From NCBI RefSeq assembly GCF_052857255.1, contig NC_135506.1, positions 75,845,056-75,909,055 of the forward strand: a stretch of 64,000 nucleotides of DNA, given 5' to 3'. Origin of the DNA: Amblyomma americanum. Lineage: Eukaryota > Arthropoda > Arachnida > Ixodida > Ixodidae. Position numbers and translations under genes: made by a program. Below the pieces are notes generated by a model that did not search any database, was not told the DNA's origin, and was given only the letters and a program-made list of their open reading frames with translations. Shown here piece by piece: positions 51,330-64,000 of the stretch (its first letter is position 1; every line of letters begins with the position of its first letter).

Positions 51330-54300
51330 TTACGGTACAAGTATAGTATCGCCACCATGATCCGCTTTAATGGTGGGCAGTGATGAGCCAATTTCAATCT
51401 CCACTACATCCTCTGGCACAATGCATGACACTGCATCAGGGTCTGATCTGCACTTGCTGATCTCGTCAGCCTCAATTTCTTCCACTGCTATCTGGCAATG
51501 TGCATCGACGCCCAAGCTTGACAACACACTGTGCAGTACTAGAGTATCTTCCCCATCCTGAGTGCAATCATTTTCAGCTGTACAAGAATCTTCACTGCTT
51601 TTACAAACACTTATGCTGTTAACACCTTGGCTTGCTGGCATATAACTGCACCCTGAGCTGCTTTGCAGAACACTAGGCTCAGAGAAATCGTCATGCTCAT
51701 ACTGTGTTTTAGCTCGGCTACATGTGTCAGGCTCTAAATTGTACCCTGCAACAATGCCACAATCTTTCAGCTCAAAATTATTGGCCAAGTTTGATACAGC
51801 TGCTTCTTTTAGACCAACACATGGGCTGTCATCGGGAAATGTTGCTACTGGATGATGCTGTGAATCAATTCTTGAGCACACAGGTTCGCTCTCTTCAAAT
51901 TTTTTTACTCGACAGGAAGTATCGCTTTCAGAAGTTACGCCTGTCTCTATTGCTGCTGTAAAGCTTTTATCAGTGACCAAAGACGAAGTTGCAACACCAT
52001 CAGGAACATCTGCAGTCATATGTTCACTTTCACACTCTACACTATGCAGAAACATGTCCTTGCACTCTACAGACAGTTCACAATCAGATGCTTCAGTGAT
52101 ATCCAAAAATTCAGTGTGCTCAGCATGCTTATTGTGAGCTTTAAGCATGGGATCAGGATCTGCTGCAAGGGCTTCAGACTTTATTGAATCCTCCTCCACA
52201 TTTTTACATTCAACTTCATCAGCAACATCTGGATCTTCACTGAGTGTTTCACAGTACATATCCTTCTCATCTTCCAAATCTTCGTATTCCATGGAATCAG
52301 GATTGCAAACACGATTGAACAAATCCTGTGCACTCTCCACATCATCTTTAAAGTCAGTTTCACTTTCAGACTTGTGTTCTGCTTGTGCAACTTCTCCTCC
52401 AACCTCATTCAACTGTTTGGTGCCATCTAAAACTGCAATATTGACTACTTGCGTCTTGCAACCAGGAGGCATTTCTTCTTTTTTATCGTTGAGCACAACA
52501 TTGCTCACCAATTCCTCGAGCGTTTCCTTGCTTGCTAGAACCACATCATCTGTCTCATGCTTGACAGGCTTCAAAACTGCAGGCCTGAGATCTTTATTGT
52601 CCAATTGTAGCTGAGGAGTCCTGAATGCCATTGAAGCTGAACACGATCCAGAGGAGGCTGGTGTGGAAGCAGGGCTCGAAAGTGTGTCATCCTCACTGGC
52701 ATCAAGTTCAGGGAAATACTTTTCATCTCCAAGATCTCGAAACACCAGTGTCCTGGTGCCATCACTGGCAGTACTCCAAATCTCCAACGAATCACATTTC
52801 ATATAAGCCTGAGGCTTGTAGTGATGCATTGGCTGAAAATGACACCTTGTATGGTCTCGTAAAGTTGACATATGTGTTGACCGGTAATCACAAAAAGTAC
52901 AGCACAGTCCTTCTGAAGTACCGTGGTGCTGAAGATGGTTCACAACTGTCTCACGCCGATGAAATGCATACGGGCATTTGCTGCAGATGTACACACACTT
53001 TTCTTCAACAACTGCTGGTGTGGCAGCAGTTGGTGTACTGTCTGACAAAGGCATGGCAGTACTTGGCTCAGAGCCATTTTCAGGTGGCTGAGGAGAGCTT
53101 GTAAGTGGTGCAGGATGCTCTACTTTCGGCTGCTTCGACTCAGGCACAAGGACTTCATGGAGTTTACGATGCTTGACGAGATTGCCTGCAAGCTTGACAG
53201 AGTAGTCGCAGTGTGAGCAACGAAATCGTTCATTGCGTCCATGAAGGGTAAGGTGACTTTCGAAGCGATTGTACTTTGAAAATGATGCAGGACATTTGTC
53301 GCAGCGAAACATCTTGGGAGGTTGTTTCTGCTTCAGCACACCTTGGTAGTGAAGGTGCGTGTGTGTACTCACATTGGCTGCACTGTTGGCTGCATAGTTG
53401 CAGAAGTGGCAGGTATACACCCCTGTGCTACCATGCAGACTTAGGTGATACTCCAGCGTTGTTGGTTTCTGAAAAGCTGCAGGGCAGCGAATACAGCGGT
53501 GCAACTGGACTCCCATGCTCTGAGAGCCAGCATCCACAAAGGCACGAGTCTCGGCTTTCTCCAGAAGTAACATCTGATCAGCAGCAGCTGGAGCTGCAGG
53601 AGGGGTGGCAGACTCTGGCTGCTGGCTGCGAATCTCAGCTAATGTAAAGCCATTCTGGCGTTCTGCATATTCTTGTGTATGGACAAGAAGGTGCTTGCGC
53701 AGATGAGCCTTGTGTCTGGCTCTGTAGTCACAATGGTGACATGGATACAGATGACCAGAATTGTGGTACGCCTTATGGGTGTCCAAGTCGTAGTGACTTT
53801 TGAACATGGCAGGGCATTTGTCACAACAGTAGCTGAATATCTTCTTGCATGATGGTGACTCCAACTTGTCCTTTAATGCCGAGATCTCAGACTTCTGTGC
53901 ACCTACAGCTGCTGACTCAGGAACTGTTTTTTTGGCAACTGCTGGCCTTGAAGGCAGTGCATTGAGATTTTCACAAAATGTCCTCATACGGTTTAAGTCC
54001 AGCGATCGGTAATCTGCTTTGTGAAGCTTCATGTGGCTGGCGAGAACCCCAGTGTTGCTGCATCGGTAGCTACAAAGAACACACTGGAATTTAGCCCCCT
54101 TCAAAGCAGTATGCATGCATTCATGAATCTTCACATTAGCCCTGCGTTTGTTGGTCAGGGGACAGAATCGACATTTGAACATGCGATAGGCTGTGCCATT
54201 CACCATTGTTGTCATTGTCTGGATTCCACCACTATATGGCGTCCCGTCCAGTGGCCTTCCATCAGCAGATCTGTGTATCTTTTGGTGCTGAACTATCAGG

Positions 54301-57230
54301 TGCCTGTGGGTTGACCAATAATTGCAATGGGTGCATTTGTGAGGGGCATTCTTGTTGGGCCGATGGAACTGCTTGTGGTACAGGTACTGAGTTTTATTAT
54401 CAGAGCTGTATGGGCAATTCTCACAAGCATGTTTCTTCGTACCTGCCTTCACAAGCAAGCGAGGAAGAATTTCTGTGGCTGGCTGTTGCTCTTCTTTGTG
54501 CAGTTTCATGTGACGGGACAAAGTCTTTTTGACATTGGCATAGTATGGGCAATACTTACACTTGTAAATAGCTCCTTCTTTAGGCACATGGTGCTTCATG
54601 TGAAACTTCAAGTGGCATACCCTTGAGCATTGGTAAGGACATGTATTACATTTCAAAATCTTTGGCTCAGCGTTCTGCGGTGCATGAGGTACAGCAGGTT
54701 TTTGTTCTTTCAAACGAAATGTGTTGCCTTCTTCTACGAAAGAAACATTACTTTCTATGTGTTCTGGACCTGTGTTATGTCGATGTCTGACATGCATCAG
54801 GACAATATGGTACCACTCTGAAATAAAGTTGCAAAGACGGCAACGATAGGGATTTACTGACGCATGTGAGCCCAAATGTGACAGAACTGCTTTGCGTTCA
54901 GTATGATTGAAGTTGCAGTGGCCACAATATAGAACCTGCTGGTTAGAACTTGATTCAGGGATAGGAGCTTCCAAATCATCCTGGTAATCTTGGTCTCCAT
55001 AGAGTATATCAGGTGTTACCACTATGTTCTCAGTCTCATCACAACAAATCAGTTGCGCTTCCTCTTGATTGAGCCTGGAAGGCTGTGCGGGCTGAAGAAC
55101 TTTGCCACCTGTTGAGGATTCCTCTACATCCACTAGGTGAATCTTGTACTCTTCATAATTCTTGAAGCCGGTTTGATCCATGACTACCAACCTGGCCTCC
55201 TTGTGTTTTGGGTCATTGCCAGACTTGCTTTTGATATGCTTCTTCACATCGCATTTCCAGTTGGAGCGATAGCTGCAAACTGAGCACCTGAAAGGTCTTT
55301 TATTGAGGTGCTGTATCATATGGCGATGAAAATGCGATGCTGGTCGGGTCAGAAATGAACAGTGTGGACACTTGTATTTCTGAACGATCCTGGGTTTAGT
55401 GTCAGCTGCACCAGTGTTCTCCTTGTGCATTCGGAAAGCATGGCGCATCATGTCACCTTTCCGATGGCTTGTAAAGGAGCAGTGGGTGCACTTGAAGGCT
55501 TTCAAGTTTCCATGGATTAACTCATGCTTTCTCAGTGCTGAAATCCATCGTGCAGTATAGCCACAGCGTTGGTAAACGTGCATGGGCTGCTTGCTCTTCA
55601 TAGAGATGTCAAGTGCTTGGATAGAGCCAGAATAGTTAGCAGGGGAAGTCGAATCATCACTCTTGCCCAGCTCTATAATGATTGGTGCACTTGTTATCCC
55701 AGTAGCAACAGCATCACTACTGCTCTTTCCACTCGGCTCTTCTTGATGGTCTAGCATTACATGCTGCTCAAGGTGATCAAGCTGGTCAAAGCGAATATGA
55801 CAAAGTGAGCATCCATGCTTCCTATTCATTTTAAAATGAGTTTCCTCATGTCGTTTAAGCTCTGATGGCCGCAGGACTTGCTGAGGACAATATCGACATT
55901 TCCGCATTGTCCCTTCATTGTTTTCTACAACAGCAGTCTCTCCAGTTCGCTTCAGAGTCATTTTGAGTGCCGGTGGTGAGGTGGAGTCCTCAGCAGCATC
56001 TTCGTCAATCACGAGTCTGTCTTCATCATCATCCACATTTTCGCTTTCAGTGTTTTCTCCATCAATATTGGTAGCATCCTTCAAAAGTTTATTTTGAAGG
56101 TGCAAGCAATGGGCAGTAGGGCTTTTACGAGACATGGTCATGAAACCACATTTGTTGCAATGGAACTCACCACCTGAAGTATGGCGCTTGAGGTGCCAAT
56201 CCATGTTCCATTTGTAGCCGGTCTGGAAGTTGCAGAACTGGCATTTGATTTTTGGTAAACTGTGAAAACGCATATGGCGAGTGTAACGACCTTTTTCATG
56301 GCACACATAGCCACACTGTTGGCAACGATAGAACCGCCGCTTCAGATGCACTGTCTTTTTATGTTCTTCCACATGAATTTTGCTCTTTGCATGGAAGTTA
56401 CAAATGCTGCACTTGAACACTCTTTCTTGAATGTGCACTTTGATTTCAGCAGAACGGGATGGTGACGATGCAGGTGATCCTGTTTCTACCAAATGCCGTG
56501 AATTCTCACCATACATCTCCTCCTTGTGGACAATATTGCAGTGGGTCTGTAGCTTCTGTGGCTGTTTGGAAGCATACTCACAAAAAGGGCACTCATGAAT
56601 GCTAATGCAATCCCCATGAACATCTCTCCTATGGCTGAGAAATTCTCGCGCCCATTTCGTTACCAAGTCGCATTCAGCACAGGTATAGGTTCGTCTTCCT
56701 GTACGCCCTTTTTTGTTAGGCACAGGTGGTGAACTCTCGTGCGGCCTCTTTTTTGACTCTTTAACACATTCATTCTGCTCTTCAAGAACACTATTTTGCA
56801 GGTGAATCTGATCACTAACATCGCCAGTGCCCAGTTCTGGCTCAAGGTTGTTTGCAACTATTTTTTCAGCAGATGCACAGCCAGTGTCTCCACCTTCCAT
56901 GTTCATTTTTGCAGCATACTTCGCATAGCACACTCTCTTGGCTTCCAGCTTCCTCAGTAGCACATCCAAGAACTGCGGGTGTTCATTAGATGTATGCGCC
57001 ACAAGCTCATCTTGGTTGTCACACAGCTGGCCACACATTTCACAAACATTAGCCATTTTAAGCTTGTGGATACTCTGTCTGTGCCGGTAAAAGCTGGCCT
57101 GGTAGCGAGTAACAAACGCACAAATGCTGCACCTATACATGCGGCTCCTGTGGTTTAAGTATACATGGTTCGCTAGGTGTTTCCTGTTCTTTCCAACAAA
57201 CTTGCAGCTTTCACACCTATAACTAGGCAT
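51330..57230 (-). CDS. Large C2H2 zinc-finger protein, about 31 fingers, 1,966 aa
   Basis: Uninterrupted frame encoding a probable nuclear, DNA-binding regulator. I chose the ATG at 57230 (context CACACCATGC, protein start MPSYRCESC); the frame is open upstream but without another ATG. About 31 C2H2 units lie between residues 5 and 1,465, mostly of the 'CxxCxYxS...L..H...H' style seen in REST-, Hunchback- and ZNF462-like proteins rather than the TGEKP-linked KRAB type. Examples are 'CESCKFVGKNRKHLANHV', 'CKYCPYYANVKKTLSRHM' and 'CSHCDYSVKLAGNLVKHR'. At least two are degenerate: 'YQRCGYTARWISALRKH' lacks the first Cys and 'CSVCSYRSNWKCDVKKHI' lacks the last His. The final 500 residues are finger-free, acidic and Ser-rich, as in activation or recruitment domains. 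No stops or shifts; clearly under selection. Orthology to a named gene is not established. Confidence 0.92.
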   Translation of the reverse strand: MPSYRCESCKFVGKNRKHLANHVYLNHRSRMYRCSICAFVTRYQASFYRHRQSIHKLKMANVCEMCGQLCDNQDELVAHTSNEHPQFLDVLLRKLEAKRVCYAKYAAKMNMEGGDTGCASAEKIVANNLEPELGTGDVSDQIHLQNSVLEEQNECVKESKKRPHESSPPVPNKKGRTGRRTYTCAECDLVTKWAREFLSHRRDVHGDCISIHECPFCEYASKQPQKLQTHCNIVHKEEMYGENSRHLVETGSPASSPSRSAEIKVHIQERVFKCSICNFHAKSKIHVEEHKKTVHLKRRFYRCQQCGYVCHEKGRYTRHMRFHSLPKIKCQFCNFQTGYKWNMDWHLKRHTSGGEFHCNKCGFMTMSRKSPTAHCLHLQNKLLKDATNIDGENTESENVDDDEDRLVIDEDAAEDSTSPPALKMTLKRTGETAVVENNEGTMRKCRYCPQQVLRPSELKRHEETHFKMNRKHGCSLCHIRFDQLDHLEQHVMLDHQEEPSGKSSSDAVATGITSAPIIIELGKSDDSTSPANYSGSIQALDISMKSKQPMHVYQRCGYTARWISALRKHELIHGNLKAFKCTHCSFTSHRKGDMMRHAFRMHKENTGAADTKPRIVQKYKCPHCSFLTRPASHFHRHMIQHLNKRPFRCSVCSYRSNWKCDVKKHIKSKSGNDPKHKEARLVVMDQTGFKNYEEYKIHLVDVEESSTGGKVLQPAQPSRLNQEEAQLICCDETENIVVTPDILYGDQDYQDDLEAPIPESSSNQQVLYCGHCNFNHTERKAVLSHLGSHASVNPYRCRLCNFISEWYHIVLMHVRHRHNTGPEHIESNVSFVEEGNTFRLKEQKPAVPHAPQNAEPKILKCNTCPYQCSRVCHLKFHMKHHVPKEGAIYKCKYCPYYANVKKTLSRHMKLHKEEQQPATEILPRLLVKAGTKKHACENCPYSSDNKTQYLYHKQFHRPNKNAPHKCTHCNYWSTHRHLIVQHQKIHRSADGRPLDGTPYSGGIQTMTTMVNGTAYRMFKCRFCPLTNKRRANVKIHECMHTALKGAKFQCVLCSYRCSNTGVLASHMKLHKADYRSLDLNRMRTFCENLNALPSRPAVAKKTVPESAAVGAQKSEISALKDKLESPSCKKIFSYCCDKCPAMFKSHYDLDTHKAYHNSGHLYPCHHCDYRARHKAHLRKHLLVHTQEYAERQNGFTLAEIRSQQPESATPPAAPAAADQMLLLEKAETRAFVDAGSQSMGVQLHRCIRCPAAFQKPTTLEYHLSLHGSTGVYTCHFCNYAANSAANVSTHTHLHYQGVLKQKQPPKMFRCDKCPASFSKYNRFESHLTLHGRNERFRCSHCDYSVKLAGNLVKHRKLHEVLVPESKQPKVEHPAPLTSSPQPPENGSEPSTAMPLSDSTPTAATPAVVEEKCVYICSKCPYAFHRRETVVNHLQHHGTSEGLCCTFCDYRSTHMSTLRDHTRCHFQPMHHYKPQAYMKCDSLEIWSTASDGTRTLVFRDLGDEKYFPELDASEDDTLSSPASTPASSGSCSASMAFRTPQLQLDNKDLRPAVLKPVKHETDDVVLASKETLEELVSNVVLNDKKEEMPPGCKTQVVNIAVLDGTKQLNEVGGEVAQAEHKSESETDFKDDVESAQDLFNRVCNPDSMEYEDLEDEKDMYCETLSEDPDVADEVECKNVEEDSIKSEALAADPDPMLKAHNKHAEHTEFLDITEASDCELSVECKDMFLHSVECESEHMTADVPDGVATSSLVTDKSFTAAIETGVTSESDTSCRVKKFEESEPVCSRIDSQHHPVATFPDDSPCVGLKEAAVSNLANNFELKDCGIVAGYNLEPDTCSRAKTQYEHDDFSEPSVLQSSSGCSYMPASQGVNSISVCKSSEDSCTAENDCTQDGEDTLVLHSVLSSLGVDAHCQIAVEEIEADEISKCRSDPDAVSCIVPEDVVEIEIGSSLPTIKADHGGDTILVP

Positions 57231-57473
57231 GGTGTGGAATCCAGGCTTTGTGTCACTTGCTGTCCTGTCTGCAACCACAGCAACATAGGACAAAGCAGTC
57301 AACTTCACTTTTGGCGCGGCCGGGCTTGCACTTCACGATACAACAGCCAGCAAGATGCGTTCGGTAACCCTGTAAGGACGCCAGGTACATCAGGCACAAG
57401 TCAACCACTTCCAGTGCAGACTCACAGCTTATCTCAAGCTGAGCTCCATGATCCAGCAAGTCTTGAATTTGGG
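57231..57473 (-). other. 5' part of the zinc-finger exon (probable 5' UTR)
   Basis: A very strong acceptor (TTTTTTCTCTTATTGCAG) ends at 57474. The following 243 bases lead to the ATG at 57230. One frame here, different from the zinc-finger frame, reads 'IQDLLDHGAQLEISCESALE' and 'VVDLCLMYLASLQGYRTHLA' before stopping. A TGA closes the zinc-finger frame upstream, so in a simple model this is untranslated leader. A second possible acceptor (GTGGTTGCAG) ends near 57284. Confidence 0.5.
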
Positions 57474-59200: not shown

Positions 59201-59707
59201 AAATTTAGCCTACCTTCGAACGAAACTGGCACGAATGCGTTTCGCGTATTTTTTTTCTTCGTCTCTTCTAATTGTGCTAGCTCGGCTCGATCTGCTTGCT
59301 TCCGCCGTGCGTGCTGGTGACGTGGTTCTGCTGCCTTTTTCTTTTCCCTTTCCGCGATGTTTCCATGGTTTTGGCGCTCTGCTGCTAACCCCAGTGTCAC
59401 AGGTCGAATCGCGCCGCGTTTAGATTTGTGCGAAATACGAAAGCGTATTTCGCGATGTCGGTGCGCATTAATGAATCCCATTCTGTTGAGCTTTGAGAGA
59501 GTTAGCATGGGCGTGCGGCTGATGCGACCAATATGGTAACGCATTGCCGTTCGTATACCGGCGTCGCGCTCGCCTAGCCGCTTCTCTCATATGGTCGTAT
59601 TTACAGCAGATGGCGTATTTACTATACAGATATCTAAAAATAATATCTGTTATTCCGGAGCCCTTAAAAACGGCTTTGCACACAATCTACATACAGCCTT
59701 AGGACGT
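59201..59707. other. No gene seen
   Basis: Spacer between the CpG region and the LINE; no supported feature. Confidence 0.5.
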
Positions 59708-59730
59708 TATTTCATTTCATTTCATTTTAA
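59708..59730 (-). repeat. LINE 3'-terminal pentanucleotide repeat
   Basis: ATTTC repeated about three to four times on + (GAAAT/ATGAA on the element strand), directly after 'GGGTCTTTAAGGTATTAAAA'. Short tandem tails rather than poly(A) are typical of CR1/L2 lineages. Confidence 0.7.
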
Positions 59731-59794
59731 TACCTTAAAGACCCACTGGGTGTATTACATAAGGGGTGGGTACATACAGTCAAATGAACAAGTG

Positions 59795-62626
59795 TTATGT
59801 TGAAAAATGGTTGGTAACAGCTTCGGCGAATGTGGATGGGCATGAGATGGTAGCGATGTCATTGGAGAGGTCGTTCCAGTCTACAGAAACACGGTGAAAA
59901 AAAGAAGCGGCACAGGTAACAGTACGGGCACGGGGGCGAAACACTTGGAAAGGATGACGAATGTGGTGGGATATGCCGGCTGGCGGGGAAATGTAGGGAG
60001 CGCAGCGCAGCGAACTATGGAAAAATTTATGGTATAGGCAGAGGCTAGAAATACGACGACGAAGTGAAAGGGGCGCTAAACTGGATTCCGCTTTTAAAGA
60101 TGTTACACTGATATCGTACGAATAGGAGGAATGAATGAATCTGGCTGCTCTGTTTTGAAGTGACTCGAGCGCATTGAAAAGGTAAACTTGATGAGGGTTC
60201 CAAACTGGCGATGCGTAATCTAACTTTGACCTGACAAGAGTTTTATATGCTAGTAATTTTACCTGTTGTGGGGCGTGGCGAAGATGACGTCGTAAGAATC
60301 CGAGAGTTTTATTAGCCGAGGAAATGACGTTAGTAACGTGTGTAGCCCATGATAAGTTGTTACACAGTGTGACGCCTAGGTATTTGTATGATGAAACGGA
60401 CTGCAGGTGAACGTTAGCGACTACATATGGGAAATCAAGCGGGTTACGGCGGCGGTGGAAGGACAAACGTTTACATTTATGAGGGTTCAGTTCTATTAGC
60501 CAACGGTCGCACCATTCCTGTATGCGGTTTAGGTCATCTTGAAGGTATGTTGGGTCGGAGGCGTTAGTAACTGTGCGATAAACGACGCAGTCGTCCGCAA
60601 ACATGCGAATTTTAGAGCACACATTGGTCGGTAAGTCATTAATATAAATTAGGAATAGAAGCGGGCCTAGTACAGAACCTTGAGGGACGCCTGATGTTAC
60701 TGGTAGCGGATTGGATTTTTGATTGTTAACAACGACAAACTGTGAGCGATTAGTCAGGAATTCTTCTATCCATTTTACTATGTCGGGGGGCAAGTTCAAA
60801 CGGGAAAGTTTTAGGATTAAGCGTTTATGAGGTACCTTGTCAAATGCTTTTGCAAAATCCAGGAAAATGGCGTCGGTCTGTAGGTTAGAATCGAGATTAG
60901 CATGTAAATCATGAATGAATAGGGCTAGCTGCGTTTCACAAGAGAAACCTTTCCGAAAACCGTGTTGAGACGAATGGAAAAAATTGTTCGAGTCGAGGAA
61001 GTTTATAATATGAGTATAGATGACGTGTTCCATTAGTTTGCAGGGCACACTAGTAAGGGAAATGGGTCGGTAATTTAACGGCGAATCTTTGTTACCTGAT
61101 TTGTAGACTGGAACGACCTTTCCAGTTTTCCAATCGTCCGGTAGTTGTCCTGTTGAGAGTGACTGGGTAAAAAGTAAGCATAAGAACTCGGCACAAATAT
61201 CATTAGTGTTGTTTAGAAGTTTCGAGTTAATATTGTCTACACCAGATGAAGATGAGATTTCCATGTTTCTAATTAAGGACGCAATACCCAGTGAGGAAAA
61301 TGCGACTACCGGCATAGCATGCTCAAAGAGTAAATTAGATGTATGAAGTTGCGTATCGGTTTCATTAGTGAAGACGGATGAGAACGCTGCGTTGAATAAA
61401 GTAGCGCACTCAGAGTCAGTCATAGCCATGCCTGATTCGTCTTTGAGGGTAATCGTGTGTTCATGATGAGGGTTAACGGCTTGCCAGAACTTCCTGGGGT
61501 TATCGCTGAGCATTTTAGGAAGGTCTTGATGAAAAAAGTTGTGCTTGGTGTTATGGATAGCAGATTGATACGATTTTTCCGCAGCGCGGTACTTCGCCCA
61601 TGCGCTTTGCGCTCCATGGGCTCTTGCTGAGCGGAACAGGCGTTTCTTTTTATTTTCCAACCTTTTAAGACATTTAGTAAACCATGGTTTGTGTGGATTA
61701 GCGTGGAAAGTTATTTGGGGAATGAATTCATTGACTAGGGCATCAAGTTTATTCTTAAATGCTAGCCAGTTCTCATGAATACTTCGTGAATGAAAACTTG
61801 AGGAAAAACTTACGAAAAACGTTGTCAGTTCGGCATTCATTATATCATAATTACCTTTGTTGTAAAGGCGGATTGTTTTATTGTATTTTGGGCGCCAAAT
61901 TGCTTTAAGGTCGATGTTGACATGCATAGTTTTGTGATCACTAATCTCAAGGAGGTACGTAATGGGCTGAACGCTATCTGGGCAATTAGTCAGTAATAGG
62001 TCTAAAATGTTCGCACAGTTTTGTGTTACGCGCGTAGGTTTGGATATTACTTGAGTAAGGTTAAAATTGTAGCAGAAATCTAGAAATTCTGTTGCTTCGC
62101 CATTATTAGTTGTCGGTGCGGGCTGGTGCTGCCAATCAATATTAGGAAAATTAAAGTCGCCAAAGAGGAAGATGTGTGCGTTAGGGTGCTTCGTGATAAG
62201 TTTACTTACGGAATTATTAAGCTGACAGGAAAAATCACGAGAGTTATGTGGAGCCCTATAACAGACACCGAGTAAAATCGTGTGTGGTACAGCGTGGCAG
62301 TGGAGCCATAAGATTTCCAGGTCGGACGAGTCGTCAATTATCGACATTGATAACTGCTGGCTCACCGCTATCAGTACTCCCCCTCCTCGTGAGTCCTGGC
62401 GGTCTTTCCGAAAGACTTGGAAGTCTGGCAAGTCAGTTAGTACTTCGCTATCTGCGATGGCACTGTTCAACCAGGTTTCGGTTAGTATCAGTAGATTGCT
62501 GCTAGATGACAAGACAATATTGGAAACAAGTTCGCGCTTGGAAAGGAAACTACGTATGTTGGTGAACACAGCGGACAGGGGAATATTTTTGGGGCGGGTT
62601 TTTAGTTGTTTGCGAAGAGATGATTG
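59795..62626 (-). CDS. LINE ORF2: AP endonuclease and reverse transcriptase
   Basis: Enzyme that nicks target DNA and copies the element RNA at the nick (target-primed reverse transcription). The frame runs from the codon after the ORF1 stop to TAA at 59795-59797, about 943 codons. Counting from the GTG at 62569: endonuclease motifs 'LILTETWLN' (~27), 'FLFGDFNFPNIDW' (~134) and 'ISDHKTMHV' (~209); reverse transcriptase 'SPLNYRPISL' (~496), 'AIFLDFAKAFD' (~567), 'TSGVPQGSVLGPLLF' (~625), 'MFADDCVVYR' (~656, catalytic FADD) and 'YKYLGVTL' (~730). No stop or shift. Notably there is no in-frame ATG between the UAG and residue 75, which lies within the endonuclease, so ordinary initiation cannot give a whole enzyme (see the UAG-CAA-UCA site). 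Confidence 0.9.
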   Translation of the reverse strand, partial: QSSLRKQLKTRPKNIPLSAVFTNIRSFLSKRELVSNIVLSSSSNLLILTETWLNSAIADSEVLTDLPDFQVFRKDRQDSRGGGVLIAVSQQLSMSIIDDSSDLEILWLHCHAVPHTILLGVCYRAPHNSRDFSCQLNNSVSKLITKHPNAHIFLFGDFNFPNIDWQHQPAPTTNNGEATEFLDFCYNFNLTQVISKPTRVTQNCANILDLLLTNCPDSVQPITYLLEISDHKTMHVNIDLKAIWRPKYNKTIRLYNKGNYDIMNAELTTFFVSFSSSFHSRSIHENWLAFKNKLDALVNEFIPQITFHANPHKPWFTKCLKRLENKKKRLFRSARAHGAQSAWAKYRAAEKSYQSAIHNTKHNFFHQDLPKMLSDNPRKFWQAVNPHHEHTITLKDESGMAMTDSECATLFNAAFSSVFTNETDTQLHTSNLLFEHAMPVVAFSSLGIASLIRNMEISSSSGVDNINSKLLNNTNDICAEFLCLLFTQSLSTGQLPDDWKTGKVVPVYKSGNKDSPLNYRPISLTSVPCKLMEHVIYTHIINFLDSNNFFHSSQHGFRKGFSCETQLALFIHDLHANLDSNLQTDAIFLDFAKAFDKVPHKRLILKLSRLNLPPDIVKWIEEFLTNRSQFVVVNNQKSNPLPVTSGVPQGSVLGPLLFLIYINDLPTNVCSKIRMFADDCVVYRTVTNASDPTYLQDDLNRIQEWCDRWLIELNPHKCKRLSFHRRRNPLDFPYVVANVHLQSVSSYKYLGVTLCNNLSWATHVTNVISSANKTLGFLRRHLRHAPQQVKLLAYKTLVRSKLDYASPVWNPHQVYLFNALESLQNRAARFIHSSYSYDISVTSLKAESSLAPLSLRRRISSLCLYHKFFHSSLRCAPYISPPAGISHHIRHPFQVFRPRARTVTCAASFFHRVSVDWNDLSNDIATISCPSTFAEAVTNHFST

Positions 62627-62629
62627 CTA
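62621..62629 (-). promoter_or_regulatory. Candidate stop-codon readthrough signal UAG-CAA-UCA
   Basis: ORF1 ends ACA CCA CAA TCA GAT TAG (62629-62627), immediately followed by CAA TCA (62626-62621). This matches the UAG-CARYYA context known to promote readthrough. ORF2 continues in the same frame with no stop. Function is inferred. Confidence 0.6.
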
Positions 62630-63509
62630 ATCTGATTGTGGTGTAGCAATTGTTATTTCTTTCACAGTTTGCGAGATCTCATCAAAAATGTAGCGCCTGG
62701 GACCGATATGCAAGGTTTTGTAGCGTAGGGCAAATTTGTCGGAATTAGCTTTAGCAAAGGTGACTAGCTGCTTGCGGACGCTACGAACTCTGTGGGAGAA
62801 GTCTTCGCCGACACTGAATTTCGTTCCTTTAAATTTGCGGCCGTTAGAGAGTATTGTGTCTTTTATTTTGTACGAAATAAATTTGACTATTATTGGTCGA
62901 GAGCGGTTGGGTTCATGGCGGCCGAGTCGGTGGGCACGTTCTACATCCTCAGGATGAATGCTTAAGCTCAAGTGTTGAGCGCATGCAGTGACGAATGACC
63001 TCTCCCTCAGAGTCCGTAAACGTTTCGGAGGGGTTAGAATCCGAAATTCCATAAAATATGAGGTTGTTACGGCGAGATCTATTTTCACTATCGTCAATGC
63101 GGGCCTCAAGGGTTTCAATCTGACGAGATAGCCGAGTATTTTCAGATTTTATAATTTCTAACTCAGATTTTATGGCTGTCATGGCTTCCAAATGTGTCTC
63201 AAGATCGGTCATGCGCTTACTTAAACCAGCTATAGCACCGTCAGTGGATATAAGCTGGTTTTTGAGACCTTGCACTTCGGAGATTAGTTGAGTTTGACCG
63301 GCGGATAACTTTTTTAGTTCTGCGAGTACAGCCTCGAGATTGTTAGGTCCTGGGTTAGTTTCAATATCGCCTGCCAAGATCAGCAAGCAGCGAACAACAT
63401 GAGCGCATTCAAGCACAAGAAAAATGCAGCATTGCGGGCTCGGAAGCTGCACTAGGAAATAATTGCTACTTCTTTTAGCATACAAGGAATGCGGATAACT
63501 AACCTGCAT
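62627..63509 (-). pseudogene. LINE ORF1 with 2A leader, coiled coil and L1-type RNA-binding domains; one frameshift
   Basis: Nucleic-acid chaperone/RNA-binding protein of the element. From the ATG at 63509 there is a 55-residue leader with a hydrophobic run ('QCCIFLVLE', 'VVRCLLILAG') ending in the 2A-like GDIETNPGP. A coiled coil follows (about 'LEAVLAELKKLSAGQTQLIS' through 'LSRQIETLEARIDDSEN'), then an RRM-like start 'RRNNLIFYGISDSN'. After a one-base loss near 63000 the other frame continues 'VTACAQHLSLSIHPEDVERA', 'SRPIIVKFISYKIKDTIL' and 'FALRYKTLHIGPRRYIFDE', which resembles the L1 ORF1p (Transposase_22) C-terminal domain. It ends at UAG 62627. The shift site has no slippery heptamer, so I treat it as a mutation of this copy. 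Confidence 0.75.
63345..63371 (-). other. 2A-like ribosome-skipping motif in LINE ORF1
   Basis: Codons GGC GAT ATT GAA ACT AAC CCA GGA CCT encode G-D-I-E-T-N-P-G-P, matching D(V/I)ExNPG-P exactly. In known 2A peptides the ribosome skips the bond between the last Gly and Pro, releasing the upstream peptide while translation continues. 2A-like peptides are documented in several CR1-type and trypanosome LINEs. Activity here is not tested. Confidence 0.85.
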
Positions 63510-64000
63510 GATGTAGACAAACGGATTAGTGGTGTGCACGCTTGCACAGCCACCGAGCCCACAAAGCGGCGAAGGCGGTCGATCGCTGCTTATATATCCC
63601 GTGGCTGATGTTGCTGGTGATGAGGCTTTCCAGGATGGGCCGGGGAAATGGTATCCAGGGGGAGGCGCTGCCGGGCATGATGAAGTGATGACGTCGGGTT
63701 GGGGCCATGCGAAGATGCGATCGTCACTGCAGTAAACTGCAGTGGATGACGTGCTTGCTGGGGGAAGGGCCAACAACGCCGGAAGCAGGGCATTAGCGAC
63801 GAAGGCGAACACCTGCAACTCACAAACCACTGGCACAACTCTGTTCTGATGAGCATCGACGGGGCACGTGACAGTATTGCGCGGCCGCGCGAGGTCTACA
63901 GTCTGTAATTTGCAGAGCCACATTGCTACGCGTGTGTACGACAGAGACACAAGGTTAGTTCACATGTGGAATCGTGTCTGCCATCTTCACCTTCGCAGTT
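63510..64000 (-). other. LINE 5' region
   Basis: The ORF1 frame is open upstream to 63950, including an ATG at 63923, but the predicted peptide is low in domain signal and Pro/Ser-rich, so I treat it as 5' UTR with start at 63509. An N-terminal extension cannot be excluded. G+C is high, possibly reflecting an internal promoter. Confidence 0.4.

Follow-up and report, generated by a model that had tools for sequence, protein, structure and literature searches.

In tobamoviruses, benyviruses and pomoviruses, the motif of type I stop-codon readthrough is UAG followed by CARYYA, and CARYYA also stimulates readthrough of UAA and UGA; UAG is also used in type III readthrough with a 3′ structure, as in gammaretroviral Gag-UAG-Pol (reviewed in PMC3542737). 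Among long interspersed nuclear elements (LINEs), how low amounts of the second protein, ORF2p, are obtained is an unsettled problem: for SART1 and L1, reinitiation has been described or proposed, and other LINEs fuse their open reading frames (ORFs). HeT-A uses frameshifting and TART unknown means (PMC5009743), and accidental low-level readthrough of premature stops is reported for human L1 ORF2 constructs (PMC4176336). Here we describe a LINE on the minus strand of a stretch of 64,000 nucleotides (the window) from the tick Amblyomma americanum (assembly GCF_052857255.1, contig NC_135506.1, positions 75,845,056 to 75,909,055). Its ORF1 and ORF2 lie in one frame and are separated by a UAG in a CARYYA context. 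Comparison of sequences within and between families argues that ORF2 of this tick LINE clade is very probably made as an ORF1-ORF2 fusion through readthrough of the ORF1 stop codon.

One frame and one stop between ORF1 and ORF2

Read on the minus strand, the junction runs CCA CAA TCA GAT TAG CAA TCA TCT, in which TAG occupies 62629-62627 and CAATCA 62626-62621. The UAG (62627..62629, minus strand, as are all element features given below) separates ORF1 from ORF2, and the CAAUCA that follows (62621..62626) matches CARYYA. The frame then stays open for 943 codons (59795..62626) and ends in UAA. It encodes a linker of 20 codons (62567..62626), which leads up to the endonuclease start FTNIRS, then an APE-type endonuclease and a reverse transcriptase (Pfam PF14529, PF03372 and PF00078). 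The first methionine of ORF2 is codon 94 after the stop, or residue 75 when numbering starts from the GTG at 62569. An earlier prediction made from the window's letters (the original prediction) had reported this stop, the six bases after it, the 943 open codons and the late first ATG, and each of these statements was confirmed on the minus strand. Its description of UAG-CARYYA as a known readthrough context likewise agrees with what the review states (PMC3542737). The element has the attributes of an APE-type LINE, namely an endonuclease and a reverse transcriptase in ORF2, a simple-repeat 3′ tail and the presence of 5′-truncated copies. We take the catalytic residues of APE-type endonucleases to include the Asn of TNIRS (column N23) and the Glu of TETW (column E50). 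Both precede codon 94, so a product begun at that AUG would lack both.

Searching the window's own genome with the 241-bp junction gave 206 candidate places. The best 40 were scored and are 98-100% identical to the window junction. In three of them (L009-L011) the match to the window continues past the element, and two of the three were dropped to leave 38 independent copies. The window copy is itself L010; the near-identical L009 and L011 are on its contig, at distances of about 126 kb and 1.2 Mb, and look like products of segmental duplication.

The stop is UAG in 37 of the 38 family copies and UGG in one (L041), and CAAUCA follows in all 38. The column majority of these copies is free of AUG in all frames from 53 nt before the UAG up to the in-frame AUG at +282; a single copy, L040, has a Met ahead of codon 94 in the ORF2 frame. 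ORF1 is open from its AUG through a 2A motif to the stop site in 18 copies, and six have both ORFs open with UAG between them. Furthermore, divergence from the family majority is only 0.5% for ORF2 and 0.7% for ORF1. Recent amplification at 98-100% identity indicates that the UAG-bearing source was mobile. Because the copies are so young, comparison between families is the stronger test of the stop.

Divergent families of the same genome

The endonuclease start of a relative with 65% identity served as a protein query against the same genome, and the best 150 of 11,572 candidate places were kept. From these, 60 short junctions were picked by endonuclease match alone so that they spanned identity and open-frame classes, and were sorted into families by eye. 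Fifty of the 60 show an ORF1 tail, then an in-frame stop, then the endonuclease (L078 and L096 carry a second stop downstream of the first). In all 12 families, the window's included, ORF1 and ORF2 occupy one frame with a single stop between them, which is UAG in 11 families, UAA in one and UGA in none. The linker is 20-31 codons long in the 11 families measured by script and 25 codons, by eye, in F8, and is always in frame. All 12 family representatives lack a Met from the stop up to where the endonuclease begins; only F4 has one within the piece read, at codon 43, past the endonuclease start. If frames were free and families independent, 12 shared frames would arise with a chance of (1/3)^11, and at least 11 UAGs among 12 independent families with a chance of about 2e-6 (UAG taken at p = 0.25) or 5e-5 (at p = 1/3); shared ancestry makes both probabilities optimistic.

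The original prediction had named a different ORF2 frame, an upstream ORF2 AUG or a sense codon in place of the stop as grounds for rejecting it. The frame is shared throughout, no AUG precedes the endonuclease start in the family representatives, and sense codons occur not at family level but in single copies (UGG in L041, Gln in L083 and AAG in the distant L111).

The bases after the stop differ among families. UAG CAAUCA is found in F1 (the window's family), F6 and F8, UAA CAAUCA in F7, and UAG CAGCCA in F10 (one copy). The other families have UAG followed by CAAUUG (F4), CAAUCG (F9, one copy), CAGAUA (F5, one copy), CAUACG (F12, in which two of the four copies have CAUGCG and CAUAAG), GAAUCA (F2), CCACCA (F3) and CGGUUG (F11). 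Overall, C stands at +4 in 11 of the 12 families and CAR in eight.

Pairwise amino-acid identity among the 12 families is 44-80%. Most pairs have synonymous differences of 0.68-0.88, close to saturation; the exceptions are F6-F7 (0.48), F1-F8 (0.60) and F4-F9 (0.62). Over the 12 families, the ratio of nonsynonymous to synonymous differences (pN/pS) is lowest at the endonuclease start (0.20), higher in the ORF1 tail (0.31) and highest in the linker (0.65); these values are rough given that pS is near saturation. The linker and endonuclease-start codons tested in this way all precede codon 94. These ratios indicate purifying selection on the codons that follow the stop, and protein-level selection on both sides of the junction. 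What the sequences show at the junction is a shared frame, a single conserved stop (UAG or, rarely, UAA), the lack of a usable AUG and selection on both flanks.

We also tested the stop in bulk, with a junction-spanning query that has X at the stop position and so does not favour a stop. Among the best 150 of 8,079 candidate places, all had at least one stop: 121 had one UAG, 24 had one UAA and five had two stops (counted by eye, and with places from one large family not independent of each other). An overlap of the AUGA type had also been considered for the relatives, with the window's family having switched from it, a guess based on protein ends (ORF1 VKEI[A/S/T/P], predicted ORF2 MRG). The DNA of the relatives that were read rules this out, as it has the same frame, one stop and no AUG. 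In the window's family itself, no AUG adjoins or overlaps the ORF1 stop in the manner of stop-start coupling (AUGA or UAAUG).

More distant elements were collected from the same genome as matches to P0041, an ORF2 protein that shares 45% identity with that of the window, and nine of them were read as very short pieces. Seven of these have an in-frame stop ahead of the endonuclease, with no in-frame AUG between. They represent four distant families, each with an in-frame UAG or UAA: UAG CACUGC (L113, L114), UAG AGAUAC (L110, L112), UAG GGCUGC (L116) and UAA CGAUGC (L117, L118). In a distant spanning query, the best 150 rows comprise 116 with at least one UAG, 18 with UAA only, one with UGA only and 15 that are stop-free (by count); UAG is present in 38 of the 39 top rows. 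The distant matches lie in long open frames, of up to 1,777 codons interrupted by one UAG; this length suggests that ORF1 is intact upstream, in sequence beyond the pieces read. After the stop, the distant families share the stretch NNN-UGCG[CU]GAGGGG[CU]AGUGG (UACG in L110). It may act as another type of readthrough stimulator, or may encode a conserved CARGSG-like peptide. Folding of four distant pieces gave a strong signal in L117 (z −4.1), a weak one in L110 (z −1.8) and none in the other two. In L113, CACUGC and GCAGUG directly after the UAG are exact reverse complements, which the predicted fold leaves unused.

Probable readthrough and its alternatives

Under readthrough, the main product would be ORF1p, terminated at the ORF1 stop, and the minor product an ORF1-endonuclease-reverse-transcriptase fusion arising from occasional readthrough. 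The ribosome would decode UAG with a near-cognate tRNA, helped by the linear CARYYA in the window's family. The fusion would be the working enzyme, with readthrough setting the ratio of ORF1p to ORF2p. The window's family fits type I readthrough, having a linear motif and no structure that we found. CARYYA also stimulates UAA readthrough, so the UAA-CAAUCA family F7 fits as well. The original prediction had proposed such a minor fusion for the window's element, and comparative sequence evidence supports it more widely than proposed, across 12 families and four distant ones.

Several points weigh against this interpretation. Strict CARYYA occurs in only five of the 12 families (one of them after UAA) and in none of the four distant ones. 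The expected conservation of the bases after the stop therefore held within the window's family (38 of 38 copies) but not across the clade, and the strict motif is a feature of a subset rather than a general signal. To our knowledge, UAG CCACCA, CGGUUG and GAAUCA are not strong readthrough contexts when structure is lacking, and downstream of the stop the 12 families show no RNA structure that stands out (z −1.2 to 1.7). Ten of the 60 junctions lack the pattern: eight are truncated, rearranged or frame-shifted (L051, L061, L062, L067, L072, L087, L104, L108), L103 has a deletion across the junction, and L083 has Gln at the stop position. The close pairs F6-F7, F1-F8 and F4-F9 leave fewer independent lines than 12. 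The spanning lists are ranked by score, which favours one-frame matches, so they test the stop and are silent on the frame, for which the test rests on the 60 junctions chosen by endonuclease match. Among distant elements, L111 has AAG at the stop position, an indel in L115 shifts its UAG out of frame, and 10 of the 145 spanning rows that reach the stop position lack a stop (five stop-free rows begin after it). In favour of readthrough, within limits, none of 334 relatives matched both ORF1 and ORF2 at E 1e-4, with the readthrough-protein query included, in a check that drew on the best 120 of 1034, of 197 and of 164 proteins and whose ORF1 search was limited to proteins of at most 511 aa. The longest of 102 ORF2 relatives that are at least 38% identical is 962 aa.

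ORF2 might instead be started separately, by reinitiation at a non-AUG linker codon or by internal entry, with the shared frame being incidental. Separate starts have LINE precedents in the stop-start coupling of SART1 and the reinitiation proposed for L1 (PMC5972666), and in Zorro3 the first ORF2 AUG is required (PMC1965478). Reinitiation needs no common frame, yet all 12 families share one across linkers of 20-31 codons, at the odds given above if they are independent. AUG is absent, no near-cognate start at a fixed linker position was noticed by eye, and a separate start leaves the preference for UAG over UGA unexplained. We consider it unlikely that ORF2 is begun in this way.

RNA-level conversion of the stop is another possibility, for instance A-to-I editing of UAG to UIG (Trp), as occurs in hepatitis delta virus. 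A single edit would suffice at UAG, and copy L041 carries UGG in its DNA. Editing would need two changes in the UAA families (the 24 UAA-only places; L117 and L118), and no stable local hairpin was found in the window's clade; we regard editing as highly improbable. A further explanation sees the stop as a product of decay or as a neutral remnant, the working elements being rare sense-codon versions or using ORF2 in trans. Stop-free copies do exist, as the UGG, Gln and AAG cases above attest. Even so, the stop is kept in 37 of 38 young copies and in 12 of 12 families, a fused protein of this kind is absent among the 334 relatives, and neutral stops would drift among the three codons and to sense. 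We give this explanation very little credence.

Readthrough of the ORF1 stop is the reading that we favour. Extending it to the lineage that includes the 45%-identical relatives, we think it likely that the endonuclease and reverse transcriptase are made only as a UAG- or UAA-readthrough fusion, with a 2A motif earlier in the mRNA and with stimulators that differ by sub-lineage (CARYYA in some; UGCGYGAGGGGYAGUGG, possibly with a hairpin, in others).

ORF1 anatomy and comparison with known systems

The window's ORF1 is split by a 4-bp insertion peculiar to this copy (about 62984-62987). Its 3′ part (62630..62983), with the end of an RNA recognition motif (RRM) and a C-terminal domain, is in the frame of ORF2. 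The 5′ part (62988..63509) begins at an AUG (63509-63507) and encodes a hydrophobic helix, the 2A motif, a coiled coil and the RRM start. The insertion puts it in a different frame from the 3′ part, and it lies within the open frame 62949-63959. In copy L012, ORF1 measures 292 aa from AUG to UAG. ORF1 has in order a hydrophobic helix, the 2A motif, a long coiled coil, an RRM and a C-terminal domain, the last three being the parts of an L1-type ORF1p. An AlphaFold model of ORF1 has a mean pLDDT (predicted local distance difference test score) of 89.2, and the best matches are human L1 ORF1p structures, 2ykq (Foldseek E 4.4e-10) and 2ykp (profile E 5e-8). Pfam recognised no family in ORF1, with only coiled-coil matches under the cut-off. 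One ORF1, that of P0155 from Dermacentor variabilis, has a C-terminal extension beyond the usual end, placed like that of the window's family.

The 2A (StopGo) motif DIETNPGP (63345..63368) follows the hydrophobic helix and matches the form D[V/I]ExNPGP given in PMC4981915. The strict motif D[VI]ExNPGP is present in 102 of 120 ORF1 relatives (the best 120 of 197), which come from ticks (Ixodes, Rhipicephalus, Dermacentor, Haemaphysalis and Amblyomma) and from other contigs, the other tick species having been compared as proteins only. In an alignment of 44 sequences, the G, E, N, G and P of the motif are invariant, D and the first P nearly so, and these residues rank among the most conserved positions of ORF1. 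As inferred from the motif, 2A probably separates the hydrophobic leader from ORF1p by StopGo. The leader would be split off upstream of the stop, so a single mRNA probably carries two recoding sites.

In a tree of 120 relatives, with no reference lineages included, the window's ORF2 sits among P0001-P0014. A 2A-like motif is present in 14 of 212 ORF2-matching proteins. The outgroup L049 (NZ_CAHJWD020000157.1) has a 2A-like motif, PHD-like fingers, an endonuclease and a reverse transcriptase, and is stop-free over 1300 codons. Thus, outside ticks, distant relatives such as this one can hold 2A, endonuclease and reverse transcriptase in one frame. The L049 contig, which holds the one locus that a scan of genome contigs yielded, is filed as a Bathymodiolus gill symbiont and is probably mussel-host DNA within a symbiont assembly. 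Scans of viral contigs confirmed no relative.

Upstream, a 5′ unit (63502..63817) that contains the ORF1 AUG is single in the window. In some copies (L018, L023 and L033) such units recur about every 309 bp (103 codons). Each unit has the ORF1 AUG in register with ORF1, and the ORF1 frame can therefore span several units. At the other end, the 3′ untranslated region (59705..59794, the low end approximate) closes with a terminal (AAATG)n tail, which is present in all seven copies inspected at the 3′ end. Elsewhere in the window, a 2000-codon open frame (51330-57332, minus strand) with many C2H2-like zinc-finger motifs, noticed by eye, is apparently an exon of a host gene.

If readthrough is confirmed as the source of ORF2p, it would represent retrovirus-like ratio control in a LINE clade, and would mean that a Gag-Pol-type readthrough fusion can arise outside long terminal repeat (LTR) elements and viruses. 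The families would also constitute a natural series of readthrough contexts in an animal. Note that an ORF2 without its own start codon may be missed or shortened in annotation. In the literature searched, with Repbase and most subscription papers outside its scope, we found no LINE described with readthrough of an ORF1-ORF2 stop, the nearest cases being the premature stops of human L1 ORF2 constructs and the frameshifting of HeT-A; a database entry may mention such an in-frame stop.

Among described elements, the 2A-bearing APE-type non-LTR retrotransposons, reportedly the subject of work by Odon in 2013, resemble the tick LINE in having 2A near the ORF1 N-terminus, to which the tick LINE adds the ORF1-stop-ORF2 junction. 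HeT-A, TART and L1 share with it non-standard decoding in a LINE mRNA. However, they have no conserved ORF1-ORF2 stop, and the L1 case concerns mutant stops. SART1 and L1 are likewise ways to obtain ORF2p from one LINE mRNA, but their ORF2 has its own AUG (PMC5972666), whereas the tick LINE has no AUG and one shared frame. An in-frame stop between two retroelement ORFs is known from Tca2 (PMC2194720) and VdLTRE5 (PMC3441728). Those are LTR elements in which the stop is UGA, and CARYYA is said in the account of VdLTRE5 to be absent in both (PMC3441728).

The viruses with type I readthrough are alike in having UAG with CARYYA, as in the window's family, F6, F8 and F10. The UAA-CAA form of F7 has a viral counterpart, and tobacco mosaic virus needs only a short local context (PMC3542737). 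In contrast to these viruses, the setting here is a cellular LINE, with the stop between an L1-type ORF1 and an endonuclease-reverse transcriptase, and other families have UAG without CARYYA. As in the gammaretroviral Gag-UAG-Pol, the first protein ends at UAG and the minor product would be fused to a reverse transcriptase (PMC3542737). Unlike gammaretroviruses, the window's clade has no detected 3′ structure and belongs to a LINE with an endonuclease and no LTR. In this tick, a Gag/Gag-Pol-like arrangement appears to be normal for an entire LINE clade.

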